From Methanococcus voltae PS (GTDB lineage: Archaea; AGJL01; Methanococci; Methanococcales; Methanococcaceae): a stretch of 64,000 nucleotides of DNA. Positions 15,855 through 23,632 of this stretch are shown piece by piece (the stretch's first letter is position 1; each line of letters opens with the position of its first letter). Where the stretch lies: the NCBI RefSeq assembly GCF_024807035.1, contig NZ_JANUCQ010000003.1:1-64000 (forward strand). Direction: 5' to 3'. The notes under the pieces were generated by a model. That model was not told where the DNA came from and made no database searches. It saw only the letters and a program-made list of their open reading frames with translations. Position numbers and translations under genes: made by a program.

Positions 15855-16709
15855 ATGCTAAATACAGCAAAACTATTGATATTAATGGCAGGATTAACAG
15901 GATTATTATATGCAGTCTGTAGTTTATTCAACATACCCCCAATATTTGCATTACTATTTGCCCTAGTACCTAACTTAATCGCATACTTTTACAGCGATAA
16001 AATAGTTTTATCGTCCTATGGTGCAAGAATTGTGACGGAAGAGGAAGCTCCAGAACTCTACAGGATAGTTTCAAGAGTTGCAGAACGTGCAAATATACCA
16101 ATACCAAGAGTAGCACTTATTAATACGCAAACCCCAAATGCTTTTGCTACTGGAAGAAGTCCAAAAAAAGCAGTTGTAGCAGTTACATTGGGAATTATGG
16201 AATTATTAAACGAACAAGAACTTGAAGGAGTTATTGCTCACGAAATAGGACACGTAAAACATAGGGATATACTTACAGGTTCAATTGTAGCTACAATAGC
16301 GGGTGCTATTGTTTATATGACGCATATGTTACAATGGGGTCTAATATTTGGCGGTGGACGAGATAATGATAATCCAGGCGGTTTTATGGGTTCCATACTT
16401 GCAATAATCGTTGCTCCTATCGCTGCCTCAATTATACAGATGGCCATATCTAGACAGAATGAATATAAAGCAGATGAAGCGGGTGCGTTATATTCCAACC
16501 CAGTTTACTTGGCAAATGCACTTAATAAACTAGAAAAAGGGGTAAATGCGTACCCTTTGAAAAATGGTAATCAAGCTACAGCGCATATGTTTATTGTAAA
16601 CCCATTTAGAGGAAAAGATTTTGCTAGTTTATTCTCGACACACCCTTCTACAGCAGATAGGATAAATAAACTTATGGAAATGGCAGGAAATCCAAAATAT
16701 TTGCGATAA
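15855..16709 (+). CDS. htpX: HtpX-like membrane zinc metalloprotease
   Basis: The 284-residue M48 protease is expected in the cytoplasmic membrane, degrading damaged membrane proteins. Hydrophobic segments lie at about residues 5-22 and 26-45, with further ones at about 143-165 and 175-198. The zinc motif HEIGH is at 129-133 and the third ligand Glu is in NEYKADEAG near 203. All catalytic residues are intact and the length is normal. The start follows AGGTGTAAT. A TATA-like TTATATATAT near 15721 could drive it. Confidence 0.93.
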   Translation: MLNTAKLLILMAGLTGLLYAVCSLFNIPPIFALLFALVPNLIAYFYSDKIVLSSYGARIVTEEEAPELYRIVSRVAERANIPIPRVALINTQTPNAFATGRSPKKAVVAVTLGIMELLNEQELEGVIAHEIGHVKHRDILTGSIVATIAGAIVYMTHMLQWGLIFGGGRDNDNPGGFMGSILAIIVAPIAASIIQMAISRQNEYKADEAGALYSNPVYLANALNKLEKGVNAYPLKNGNQATAHMFIVNPFRGKDFASLFSTHPSTADRINKLMEMAGNPKYLR

Positions 16710-18993: not shown

Positions 18994-19318
18994 GACAATA
19001 TAAGATATTAAATAATAAAAAAGGATAATAGCACAGCATTCATATACTTATATAATACTAATAATATGTTTAAATTTAAAAATAAGGCGTCATAATCTTA
19101 AATTTACAATCGAAACTATATAATGCCTAATAATTACCTAAAAATGAATGTTATTCAAAAATTAAACTTAAACATTTTAAATATAATGGATTATATAAAT
19201 AAATACAATGTCCTAAATAATCAAGTCCCCTGCCCAAATAAATAATGATTGAAACAGCAAACTCTAGTTGTTACTATCAAATTATGTCAATTACTATCAA
19301 ATTTACACTGGAGATAGT
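18994..19318. other. intergenic region with promoter for the membrane winged-helix gene
   Basis: A TATA box TTATATAAAT at 19191-19200 predicts a start near 19225 and a leader of about 95 nt. A C-rich patch (GTCCCCTGCCC) follows at about 19225-19236, unusual in this AT-rich spacer. No gene is seen. Confidence 0.45.
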
Positions 19319-20818
19319 ATGATTAAGAAAAAAAGTTTTGAAGATAATTTCGATGGAAATATAAATAAGAAAGAAAAAAGGAATTTAAAAAATTGTACAT
19401 ATCATAATAGAGGATTAATCTTTAAAGTAATTATATTGACGGCATTAGTAGCATTTTGTACAGTTTCCTCAGTTGAAGGCCTAAAAATACAAAATTACGA
19501 TGTAAGCTGTAAAATAAATACTAGTAATATAGTCAATGAAACTATCATTTTAAAAATATACAACAATGAAAGCGAAGACATATCGCAAGTGAATTTCGAT
19601 ATTCCACAGATATTCTCAAATCCATCCTTAAAATCGGAGCATGGTGTCAAATCATATGGTTTAAGCACTATGGAGGGAGTAACATCATTGACTATGGATT
19701 TTGAAAAACCATTGAAACCCGGAGCTACCACGACCTTATCCATTGGATTTGTAAGAGATATAGATATTGACTATGAAGGTAAAAAATTTGTAACGGTGAC
19801 CGTACCTGCGTATGATTCCAGATTTACAATGGAAATAGCACTACCCCAAGGTGCAAGTATTGTATCACCAGCAGAAGGTATATTAAGTATCTCTCCACGA
19901 GATTACTCCATAGAAACGGATGGTAAAAGAATATATATAAAATGGTCGAAAGATTTGGATGCCGATGAAAAATTTTTCACGTCTTCAGTTAATTATGCTA
20001 TATTAACACCAGTAAATCCCCCTATAGATACCATACATGATAATACAGACTATTTAAATGTATATACAATATCATTATCTGCAGTTATAGTATTGCTTTT
20101 GATTATCGTATTATATCTGATATATAGGCTTAAAATAATTCTTAAAAAATCGATTGAAGATGAAGAATTAGATGAAGAAAAAAGGGATGAAATTAACGAT
20201 TTAAGGAGAAATTTGGAAATTTCAGAAGTTAATCTAAAAAATTGTAATAAAGAAATTGATAAACTTGAAAAAATCAATTCAAAACAAAATTTAGAGCTTA
20301 AAGAATTACATGACGATTTAGAATTCTACAAAATTAAAAATGTAGAATGCAATAACACAATTACAAATTTAGAAAGCAAATTGAAATTTGAAAAAGAAAT
20401 GAATGAAAAACTTTCTGATGCAATATCTGAGCGAGATAAAGAAATTAAAGAATTAGAAGAATATCAAGAAGCATGCGAAAAACAGAAAAAAACAATTTCT
20501 GAATTAAATAAAGAACTTACGTCCAAAAAAGAACATATTGATACTTTGGAAGTAAAAATAGACAAATATAGCGTTGGAAAAGCTGAAACTTTGTTAAATA
20601 TATTAACGAGTGAAGAAAAAGAGATAATAATTATAATTAAAGAACATGGAACTATATCTCAGAAAGAAATCGTTGATATTACAGGATATACCAAATCAAA
20701 GATTTCAAGAATGATTTCAGACCTTGAACAACGAGGTATTGTTGAAAAAATCAAAGTAGGTAGGTTAAATAAAATTAAACTATCTAAAAATTTTGAAGAT
20801 AAGGGAGATATGTCTTAA
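19319..20818 (+). CDS. membrane-anchored winged-helix protein with extracytoplasmic domain
   Basis: The 499-residue protein has a clear layout: a basic N-terminus, a hydrophobic segment at about 33-52 (signal anchor or signal peptide), an extracytoplasmic beta-rich domain to about 247, a second membrane segment at about 249-273, a long charged coiled coil at about 280-425 and a C-terminal winged helix at about 430-495. The last has the pattern TISQKEIVDITGYTKSKISR followed by LEQRGIVEK. It resembles archaeal surface-sensor plus MarR-like wHTH proteins. Inference: it binds DNA at the membrane in response to an outside signal. The start ATG 19319 follows GGAGATAGT; a TTG 17 codons upstream lacks a site. 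Confidence 0.75.
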   Translation: MIKKKSFEDNFDGNINKKEKRNLKNCTYHNRGLIFKVIILTALVAFCTVSSVEGLKIQNYDVSCKINTSNIVNETIILKIYNNESEDISQVNFDIPQIFSNPSLKSEHGVKSYGLSTMEGVTSLTMDFEKPLKPGATTTLSIGFVRDIDIDYEGKKFVTVTVPAYDSRFTMEIALPQGASIVSPAEGILSISPRDYSIETDGKRIYIKWSKDLDADEKFFTSSVNYAILTPVNPPIDTIHDNTDYLNVYTISLSAVIVLLLIIVLYLIYRLKIILKKSIEDEELDEEKRDEINDLRRNLEISEVNLKNCNKEIDKLEKINSKQNLELKELHDDLEFYKIKNVECNNTITNLESKLKFEKEMNEKLSDAISERDKEIKELEEYQEACEKQKKTISELNKELTSKKEHIDTLEVKIDKYSVGKAETLLNILTSEEKEIIIIIKEHGTISQKEIVDITGYTKSKISRMISDLEQRGIVEKIKVGRLNKIKLSKNFEDKGDMS

Positions 20819-21252
20819 TTCAATTGACCCAATATTTCCAAAATTATCTTTTATTATCATTACTACTATTATTATTATTATTATTATTATTATTGCGCCA
20901 GATTTCAAATTACTAGTTCTATTCTTATTCATTCATATTGTTCATATACATTCTGTTATTTGTTTTCTATTTTTAAACTATATTTATATTCAATTGTGTT
21001 GCTAAGAGTACCATATTATGAATTTATTATGAATTAACAGAAATTTTATATACTTCAAGTAGATATTTATAAGAAAACTAAGAGTATATATAAAAATATG
21101 TAAAATCAATAGATTAGAATAAGTGAATAATTAATATAAGTTAATAAATAATAATTGACTAATTGAAATAAATGTTAAACAAAATTTAAAAAAAACAAAC
21201 ATATTAGAGATTAAACCTAATTTATTTTATAACATATTCCAAGGTGGATATT
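20819..21252. other. intergenic region with ATT repeat and promoter
   Basis: An ATT/ACT microsatellite occupies about 20859-20894. A TATA box TTTTATATAC at 21044-21053 predicts a glycosyltransferase transcript with a leader of about 180 nt. Only a spurious low-complexity frame crosses the region; I see no gene. Confidence 0.5.
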
Positions 21253-22347
21253 ATGAAAGTATTGATATCAGTTTGCGGTGAAGGATTTGGACATACCACT
21301 CGGTGTATTGCCCTTGGAAAAGCACTATCTAGGAAACATGACGTTAAATTTGTGGCATATGGCAAAAGCAAAGATTTTATAGAATTATCAGGCTATAGGG
21401 TCTTAGAAACTTATCCTGAAATAAAATTATCGGGAAAAAACGGTAAATTTGATATTACCAAAAGTATGTTTAATACACAGTACCACCCTGCGAAGGCAGT
21501 TAAGAGAGAATTACAAATAATAAAAGATTACGACCCAGATTTGGTAATTTCAGACTGTAAATATAGTACTATATTAGCATCTAAGATTAGTAAAAAGCCA
21601 TATTATATAATAACAAATCAAAATGCTACAAAAACTCAAAAAAAGGAAAAATACATCGTATACCCAGTTATGAAGGTATTGAATGCAGTGAATAAATCTG
21701 CGGAAAAATTAATAATTCCAGATTTACCCTTACCATATACCATTTGCGAGTACAATTTAAAAATGATTGATAATTTACGATTTAGTGGTCCTTTAATCCG
21801 TTACGATGTTCCCACTGATGAAAGCGAATACGCTGAAGACTACATCTTGAGTGTAATTGGTGGATTCGAGTATAGACTTAGAATACTAGAATTAATAAAT
21901 AAAATATCCAAAAAAACAGGTTTGAAAGTAAAATTAGTCTGTGGTAGTGAAGAAGTAGCCAAAAAACTTGAAAAAGAAAAAGGTGAAAATGTCGAAATAA
22001 TTCCTGTGTCAACTGAAATGGACAAATTAATCAAAAAATGTTCTATGGTAGTTTGCCACGGTGGTCATTCGACACTCATGGAAGCAGTTAGTTTTGGAAA
22101 ACCAATCATAACAATTCCAGATTTGGACCATCCTGAACAGGAAAACAACGCTTTGAAGATTCAAAATCTAAAATGCGGTATAGCACTTAACTATAAAATT
22201 CTCGAAAAAGAATTGGAACCATCAATTATGAAGATTATGAATGATAAAACATATTCTAAAAATGCAAAAAAGCTTAGAAAAATTGCTTTAAACTATGATG
22301 GGAAAGAAAAGCTAATTGAAGAATTTGAAAATTCAATACTCCAATAA
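21253..22347 (+). CDS. MurG/GT28-like glycosyltransferase
   Basis: The 364-residue protein has a two-Rossmann glycosyltransferase plan. The N-terminal nucleotide-sugar glycosyltransferase start is [16 protein letters not shown] at residues 3-18. The C-terminal donor-binding motif is [19 protein letters not shown] near 265-283, typical of the MurG and UDP-glucuronosyltransferase superfamily. The donor and acceptor are unknown. It lies upstream of cofD on the same strand, and I recall the same pairing in M. jannaschii (MJ1255-MJ1256). The start ATG 21253 follows GGTGGAT; a GTG three codons earlier is part of that site. Confidence 0.8.
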
Positions 22348-22585: not shown

Positions 22586-23632
22586 ATGACTATTAAAAAT
22601 AGCTTAACAAATCATAGTAATACTTTTAAGGACTTAAAAATAACAATATTGTCTGGAGGAACTGGTACGCCAAAATTAATTCAGGGATTCGACAATATTG
22701 AAGAATTAGATAAAAAAAATATGTCCATTATAGTAAATACGGGCGAAGATAACTGGATTGGAAACATATATTTGTCACCCGATGTAGATACTGTATTATA
22801 TACCCTATCGGGACTTATTAATGAAGAAACCTGGTACGGTGTTAAAAACGATACGTTCGAGTGTCATGAGCAGTTGAAAAAGTATGGATTTGATGAAGTA
22901 TTAAAAATAGGAGACAAAGATAGAGCATTGAAAACACATAAGAGCAACTTAATAAAAAAAGGTGCTAAACTATCAAATATCATCGATGAAGAAAGAAAAG
23001 GACTCGGGATATGTGCTAAAATATATCCAATGAGTAATGACAAAGTTGAAACTAAAATCTTAATCGTTGATGAAGAAAGTGATAATAAATTAATTGATAA
23101 TAAATCAGATGTGGGTGTTAAAAAACAGCATTTATTAATAAAATTCCACGATTTCTGGATAAATAGGCGTGGAAATTCCAAAGTAGTTGACGTATTTTAT
23201 GAAAATTCAAATTATGCGGAAGCTGTTGAAGGTGCTATAGAAGATATTAAAAATAGTGATATTATAATAATTGGACCTTCAAACCCGATAACATCTATAA
23301 ATCCCATATTGAGTATCCCAAAGATTAGAGAATGTCTGAAAAATAAAGTTGTTTATGCCGTATCTCCAATAATAGGTAATAATCCAGTTAGTGGACCCGT
23401 AGGTACCTTAATGCAATCTAAAGGGTACGAAGTTAGCTCAAAAAGCGTTTATGAAATTTATAAAGATATATTGGATGTTTTTATTATAGATACTTCCGAT
23501 TCGAATGATATTATAGATAATATTGGTAATATTGAAATTTTAAAATGTAATACGATTATGAAAAATATTGATGATAAAAAACAACTTGCAAAAGAGATAT
23601 TAAACCACTATGTTAAGAATTTTAAAGAATAA
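22586..23632 (+). CDS. cofD: 2-phospho-L-lactate transferase
   Basis: The 348-residue CofD builds the side chain of F420, joining the phospholactyl (or PEP-derived) group to the deazaflavin Fo. Signatures are TILSGGTGTPKLIQGF near 20-35, NTGEDNWIGNIYLSPD near 51-66 and DTVLYTLSGL near 67-76, followed by IIGPSNPITSI near 231. An N-terminal stretch of about 17 polar residues precedes the first strand and may be an extension. GGTGA precedes the start. It is followed by GTP cyclohydrolase III, which starts the deazaflavin side of the same cofactor. Confidence 0.93.
   Translation: MTIKNSLTNHSNTFKDLKITILSGGTGTPKLIQGFDNIEELDKKNMSIIVNTGEDNWIGNIYLSPDVDTVLYTLSGLINEETWYGVKNDTFECHEQLKKYGFDEVLKIGDKDRALKTHKSNLIKKGAKLSNIIDEERKGLGICAKIYPMSNDKVETKILIVDEESDNKLIDNKSDVGVKKQHLLIKFHDFWINRRGNSKVVDVFYENSNYAEAVEGAIEDIKNSDIIIIGPSNPITSINPILSIPKIRECLKNKVVYAVSPIIGNNPVSGPVGTLMQSKGYEVSSKSVYEIYKDILDVFIIDTSDSNDIIDNIGNIEILKCNTIMKNIDDKKQLAKEILNHYVKNFKE

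Follow-up and report, generated by a model that had tools for sequence, protein, structure and literature searches.

What does a protein do that begins with a signal-type segment and a beta domain, crosses the membrane, and continues through a long coiled coil into a winged helix? The question is raised by a gene for a 499-aa protein of Methanococcus voltae PS located in the window analysed here, i.e., a stretch of 64,000 nucleotides of contig NZ_JANUCQ010000003.1 (Table 1). Archaeal membrane-anchored regulators are numerous, and a signal or a target is known for few of them. Their class is already known in print: transmembrane transcription regulators (TTRs) are defined in PMC10269533 as having a predicted TM region and a predicted DNA-binding domain in one chain, and the count reported there is 1,384 archaeal TTRs in 367 of 404 species. 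By this published definition the M. voltae protein would count as a TTR, with its TM segment at residues 250–268 and DUF7343 as the predicted DNA-binding domain. Compared with TTRs in general, the M. voltae type adds a rod of 124–213 residues and an Ost1/M1-N-like ectodomain. We found that architecture and family together fit a one-component membrane regulator, and we regard the protein as very probably a membrane-anchored regulator.

Table 1. Features of the locus, in window coordinates
Feature	Position	Strand	Basis
Whole gene, 499 aa	19319..20818	+	ATG start, GGAG upstream
N-terminal hydrophobic segment, residues 32–50, probable signal peptide core	19412..19468	+	Kyte-Doolittle
Beta ectodomain, residues 55–228, Ost1/M1-N-like fold	19481..20002	+	AlphaFold2; VIA Z 15.8, yeast Ost1
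Transmembrane segment, residues 250–268	20066..20122	+	Kyte-Doolittle 2.95; model helix 243–280
Coiled coil, one unbroken helix, residues 286–427	20174..20599	+	model; period 3.50, no proline
Winged helix DUF7343, residues 429–488	20603..20782	+	Pfam E 3.3e-19; model
Linked gene, MJ1255/VC2487-family glycosyltransferase	21244..22347	+	TIGR00661, 337.8 bits
Linked gene, CofD	22586..23632	+	after glycosyltransferase in 18/20 loci
A+T-rich block, probable promoter region	19150..19209	+	alignment of G000, G002, G006 upstream regions
C-rich patch	19227..19235	+	present in G000, G002; absent in G006

The order of the elements given above had been proposed in an earlier note on this DNA, and the sequence and a full-length AlphaFold2 model agree on it (12-sequence alignment; mean pLDDT 78.6; pTM 0.39, a value too low for the relative placement of the parts to count as predicted). 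The model opens with a helix at residues 17–49, gives the beta domain a pLDDT of about 90 and contains the anticipated wHTH fold from 431 to 488. The winged helix matches DUF7343 (PF24034) with 68.9 bits against a curated Pfam cut-off of 27.6; MarR_2, HTH_24 and MarR also exceed the Pfam cut-off in this protein, DUF7343 was matched at E <= 0.01 in all 29 homologs scanned from the order, and the invariant residues of the 29-sequence alignment are concentrated in the wHTH. Pfam and NCBIfam scans of the 499-aa protein detected no enzyme domain, in line with the same note; the M1 zinc catalytic domain was likewise absent from the Pfam scan, and only the N-domain fold is common to this protein and M1 aminopeptidases. 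We found no solved structure related to it by sequence.

As for the two membrane segments that had been predicted, the second is clear by hydropathy, and the first fits a cleaved signal peptide. All 29 orthologs have A, G or S at residue 54, the position just ahead of the first beta strand; a small residue at this site fits signal-peptidase cleavage, likely after residue 54, and hence a single span rather than two stable membrane segments. An uncleaved N-terminal anchor is possible, because the n-region is long (about 31 residues) in the M. voltae protein and its two nearest relatives. These features fit a single-span topology with the ectodomain outside and the rod and wHTH inside, so that the wHTH would be C-terminal and internal and the sensor N-terminal and external, whereas ToxR-type proteins show the reverse arrangement of DNA-binding and sensor ends. 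The open frame itself reaches further upstream, to a TTG at 19268; the ATG and the RBS are kept in the two closest species.

The rod distinguishes the M. voltae protein from the relatives measured outside its order. In all 29 Methanococcales orthologs aligned (from 30 loci; L026 was omitted for its unclear 5′ end), the stretch from the TM end to the wHTH is 124–213 residues long (median 146; 159 in M. voltae), the rod is free of proline, and its hydrophobic period falls between 3.46 and 3.55. The periodicity is weakest in M. voltae (shuffle p <= 0.030) and its two nearest relatives, and reaches p <= 0.007 in the other 26 of the 29. A fixed rod length or a constant heptad phase was considered and rejected, the lengths spanning the range given above and their remainders modulo 7 varying. 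For comparison, 60 loci were fetched from two other archaeal groups (41 and 23 genomes), of which 54 were usable in alignment (L151, L152, L154, L165, L166 and L167 were in a wrong frame, truncated or short) and 52 measurable (in L123 and L133 the second TM was below threshold). The same distance is 9–31 residues in all 52, none of which has the long-rod layout; judged against these two groups, the rod thus looks like an insertion specific to Methanococcales.

Apart from the length of this linker, archaeal DUF7343 membrane proteins have the same signal peptide, beta ectodomain, TM segment and wHTH; the ectodomain of these canonical relatives is of the same family (hhalign 99.2%, E 9.8e-20). 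The M. voltae protein is a member of an archaeal family of membrane-anchored winged-helix proteins that is widespread and that we take to be COG2512. The open-licence literature, outside which many journals lie, yielded no papers mentioning DUF7343 or DUF7345, and COG2512 appeared in it only in two papers on unrelated subjects. EarA was considered as a relative and nothing is claimed for it, the available parts of PMC5512572 and PMC10665913 being without domain details. A match was found in 37 of the 41 genomes searched, that of M. voltae included, and for the DUF7343 query 34 of the 36 genomes in the window's group had one match above 60 bits, the remaining two being 54% and 81% complete. The gene would accordingly be order-wide in Methanococcales, as a near-universal single strong copy, and the genetics of this order are good. 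The search for relatives in viruses found none. M. voltae also encodes a paralog (L032:856-1704; C3, ~92 kb) of 283 aa with a C-terminal DUF7343 wHTH (32.8 bits), whose N-terminus seems to hold two TM segments; proteins of sister species (L091–L094; 209–219 aa) share this DUF7343 end and likewise carry two TM segments. The single-protein scan of relatives comprised nine entries, one of them a meaningless 33-aa stretch.

We determined that the gene context is conserved mainly on the downstream side. Of the 20 loci with wide flanks, 19 have the glycosyltransferase gene downstream in the same orientation, 13 of them as the next gene and 6 with one or two genes in between; the linkage with CofD could be mere conserved gene order. 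Upstream, eight of these 20 loci have a metE-like neighbor and nine a divergent secF-like gene (two of them Pfam-checked); the other three have a different gene. Near the 86 loci from outside the order, whose flanks were often short, we saw homologs of neither the glycosyltransferase nor CofD, and the canonical copies in one group adjoin unrelated-looking genes. In turn, a gene for a cell-wall-binding CWB2 protein lies immediately downstream in 12 of 14 genomes of the window's own family outside its genus (G007–G020). An adjacent CWB2 gene is found in none of the seven genomes of the genus and none of 14 of the sister family, and in the M. voltae genome itself nothing matches CWB2 at E <= 0.001.

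CWB2 is also the ectodomain itself in 11 of the 54 relatives, a count that includes near-identical species. Such CWB2-TM-DUF7343 fusions (L085:1876-2862, L089:1801-2805, L145, L158, L164, L172, L174) retain the same TM-wHTH half and have CWB2 (PF04122) as ectodomain, with neither beta domain nor rod; CWB2 was not detected in the Pfam scan of the M. voltae protein, nor among the 25 families listed for the 29 orthologs. One group has five distinct fusion loci (L085 and L157, being one and the same place, count once), and in each of them the next same-strand ORFs belong to one homology cluster, identified by Pfam as UDP-glucose/GDP-mannose dehydrogenase in the one scanned. Gene linkage and domain fusion thus offer a concrete hypothesis, in which the status of the cell-surface glycan or wall is the best-supported candidate for an input or output of the protein. 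We put an envelope or glycan role at slightly short of an even chance.

The model that we favor is a membrane-anchored one-component transcription regulator responsive to the envelope; taken whole, including dimer, signal path and targets, it has in our judgement an even chance of being correct. The protein would be a dimer held by the coiled coil, with an ectodomain sensing the cell-surface state, be it the S-layer, a glycan or a partner protein, for example one of CWB2 type. From there the signal would run through the TM segment and the rod to paired wHTH heads, which would bind promoters while attached to the membrane; a rod of about 20 nm (142 residues × 0.15 nm rise) would give the head enough reach to extend beyond the membrane and into the nucleoid. 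Targets may include surface-glycan and envelope genes, plausibly those of its own neighborhood with the MJ1255-type glycosyltransferase. Membrane-bound archaeal one-component regulators with known targets are represented by ArnR/ArnR1 of Sulfolobus, a different lineage (PMC6396743).

The signal could instead act by regulated proteolysis, the protein being a latent membrane precursor from which an envelope signal, through cleavage by an S2P-type protease or HtpX, would release a soluble dimeric coiled-coil/wHTH factor. The genome carries a gene for a protease of the M50/S2P type (101 bits), htpX is found at 15855-16709, three genes ahead of this one, and a single TM with a dimeric rod would suit release. 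Yet the presence of S2P says little, because all 14 control genomes proved to have S2P-type proteases as well; htpX adjoins the gene in only some genomes, and a cleavage site cannot be named from sequence. We consider release by proteolysis unlikely.

The 60-bp block upstream of the gene, at 19150–19209, is well conserved in three of three close species. In turn, the C-rich patch, which the earlier note had singled out in the leader, was rejected as a conserved element, being absent in the third close species. The same note had set the promoter apart from neighboring operons; in L067–L070 the gene follows metE by only 18–21 nt, which makes the separate promoter a local feature. The one-component membrane regulator stands as the best reading, on family evidence, without the C-rich patch and without a separate promoter as a general property. 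A search for operators as exact dyads upstream of the 29 orthologs returned only A+T-rich words; the best 5-mers occurred in 6 of the 29 (shuffle maximum 4) and the best 6-mers in 3 (shuffle maximum 2), and in some genomes the stretches with these words fall within the upstream gene. Such words are too weak to name an operator site. Just 3′ of the gene, at 20862–20893 of the window, we observed a run of ATT triplets that is far shorter or absent in the two nearest species.

That the operator search found no motif would suit a chromosome-membrane tether or nucleoid organiser, in which rod and wHTH keep DNA near the envelope and there is no switch, as would a long, order-specific rod in a single strong, near-universal copy. 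However, relatives without the rod keep the wHTH and the ectodomain, which implies that the common ancestor needed no rod; a conserved ectodomain would be superfluous for a mere tether, and the wHTH is of MarR/TrmB type. A tether is accordingly quite improbable.

Turning to the ectodomain of the favored membrane regulator, we found that, predicted alone, it reaches a pLDDT of 91.2 and a pTM of 0.85 in AlphaFold2. The best structural match is yeast Ost1 (6ezn_A 229-447; Z 15.8, rmsd 2.8, 169 of 180 residues, 12% identity), together with human ribophorin I (8pn9_E; Z 15.0, rmsd 2.9, 173 aligned residues; Foldseek TMq 0.71), in both cases through the membrane-proximal lumenal domain. Legionella lpg2210 (4g2a; Z 14.3) and the M1 aminopeptidase N-domain of ERAP1 (Z 13.4) come next. 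Several Ost1 rows lie within one Z unit of 4g2a, so that all of these make up a single fold group headed by Ost1; since the fold is common to lpg2210 and M1 N-domains, it is not by itself diagnostic of Ost1. In Ost1 and ribophorin I, as here, the domain lies directly before the TM segment; Ost1, however, combines a pair of lumenal domains with a helical bundle in the cytosol, whereas in the M. voltae protein a single domain of about 174 residues is followed by the rod and the wHTH. Sharing the modeled fold with Ost1 shows no function.

Ost1 homologs have been reported in Asgard archaea (PMC10307638) and in both TACK and Asgard archaea, where the cytosolic domain of Asgard Ost1 is described as binding ribosomes (PMC11417166). 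Membership of the M. voltae family in Ribophorin_I (PF04597) was rejected on score, none of the 41 genomes having a match above the curated cut-off of 25 bits. At E <= 1 this model gave six matches in the 41 genomes: three are orthologs of the M. voltae protein (13–14 bits, E 0.011–0.028), which, being orthologs of each other, are not independent, and three are ORFs of 244–254 aa, two of which read as signal-beta-TM proteins. By hhalign, Asgard Ost1 domain 2 was matched with 12.2% (E 0.0024) by the focal profile and 25.8% (E 0.00073) by the focal-plus-canonical profile, and domain 1 with 0.3%; for these two profiles, reversed Ost1 and six unrelated families gave 0.0–0.4%. The canonical-only profile gave 5.5% for Ost1 domain 2, yet 2.7% for the unrelated DUF5612. 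The match to domain 2 tops nearly all controls and is far from significant. A profile of 26 ectodomains had 19 strong matches (E <= 5e-8) in 14 Heimdall genomes (G041–G055), none of them an Ost1 locus, one Ost1 appearing at E 0.088; against PDB sequences, yeast Ost1 came at E 2.2, ranked under unrelated receptors. At the sequence level the link between ectodomain and Ost1 is only suggestive, weak yet in the same direction as the fold.

An Ost1-like accessory of the Sec or glycosylation machinery, with the winged helix as a protein- or RNA-binding module, is highly improbable: the fold and position of the ectodomain, the secF-like and glycosyltransferase neighbors and the reported ribosome binding of the Asgard Ost1 cytosolic domain (PMC11417166) would suit it, but the second ectodomain and the helical bundle of Ost1 lack a counterpart here (Asgard Ost1 L099 shows only Ribophorin_I in the domain scan), sequence similarity is under threshold, and the wHTH scores as a DNA-binding type with its helix and wing residues the most conserved. 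It is conceivable, albeit doubtful, that the family ectodomain and the lumenal domains of Ost1/ribophorin I are one archaeal envelope module by descent, which in Methanococcales would sit on a 20-nm-class coiled-coil arm with a DNA-binding head, sense cell-surface glycan or wall status and act on the chromosome from the membrane; this would connect an archaeal sensor domain with a eukaryotic glycosylation subunit in a way that can be tested. Another lead, also weak, is DUF3857, which matches 2 of the 54 relatives. Sixteen of the 19 strong Heimdall matches are ORFs of 339–395 aa, in genomes that mostly also encode true Ost1. In the sister family, L114:1186-1908 and L115:1435-2157 encode a 241-aa signal-beta-TM protein without wHTH, which matches Ribophorin_I weakly (E ~0.001–0.0015), below the cut-off.
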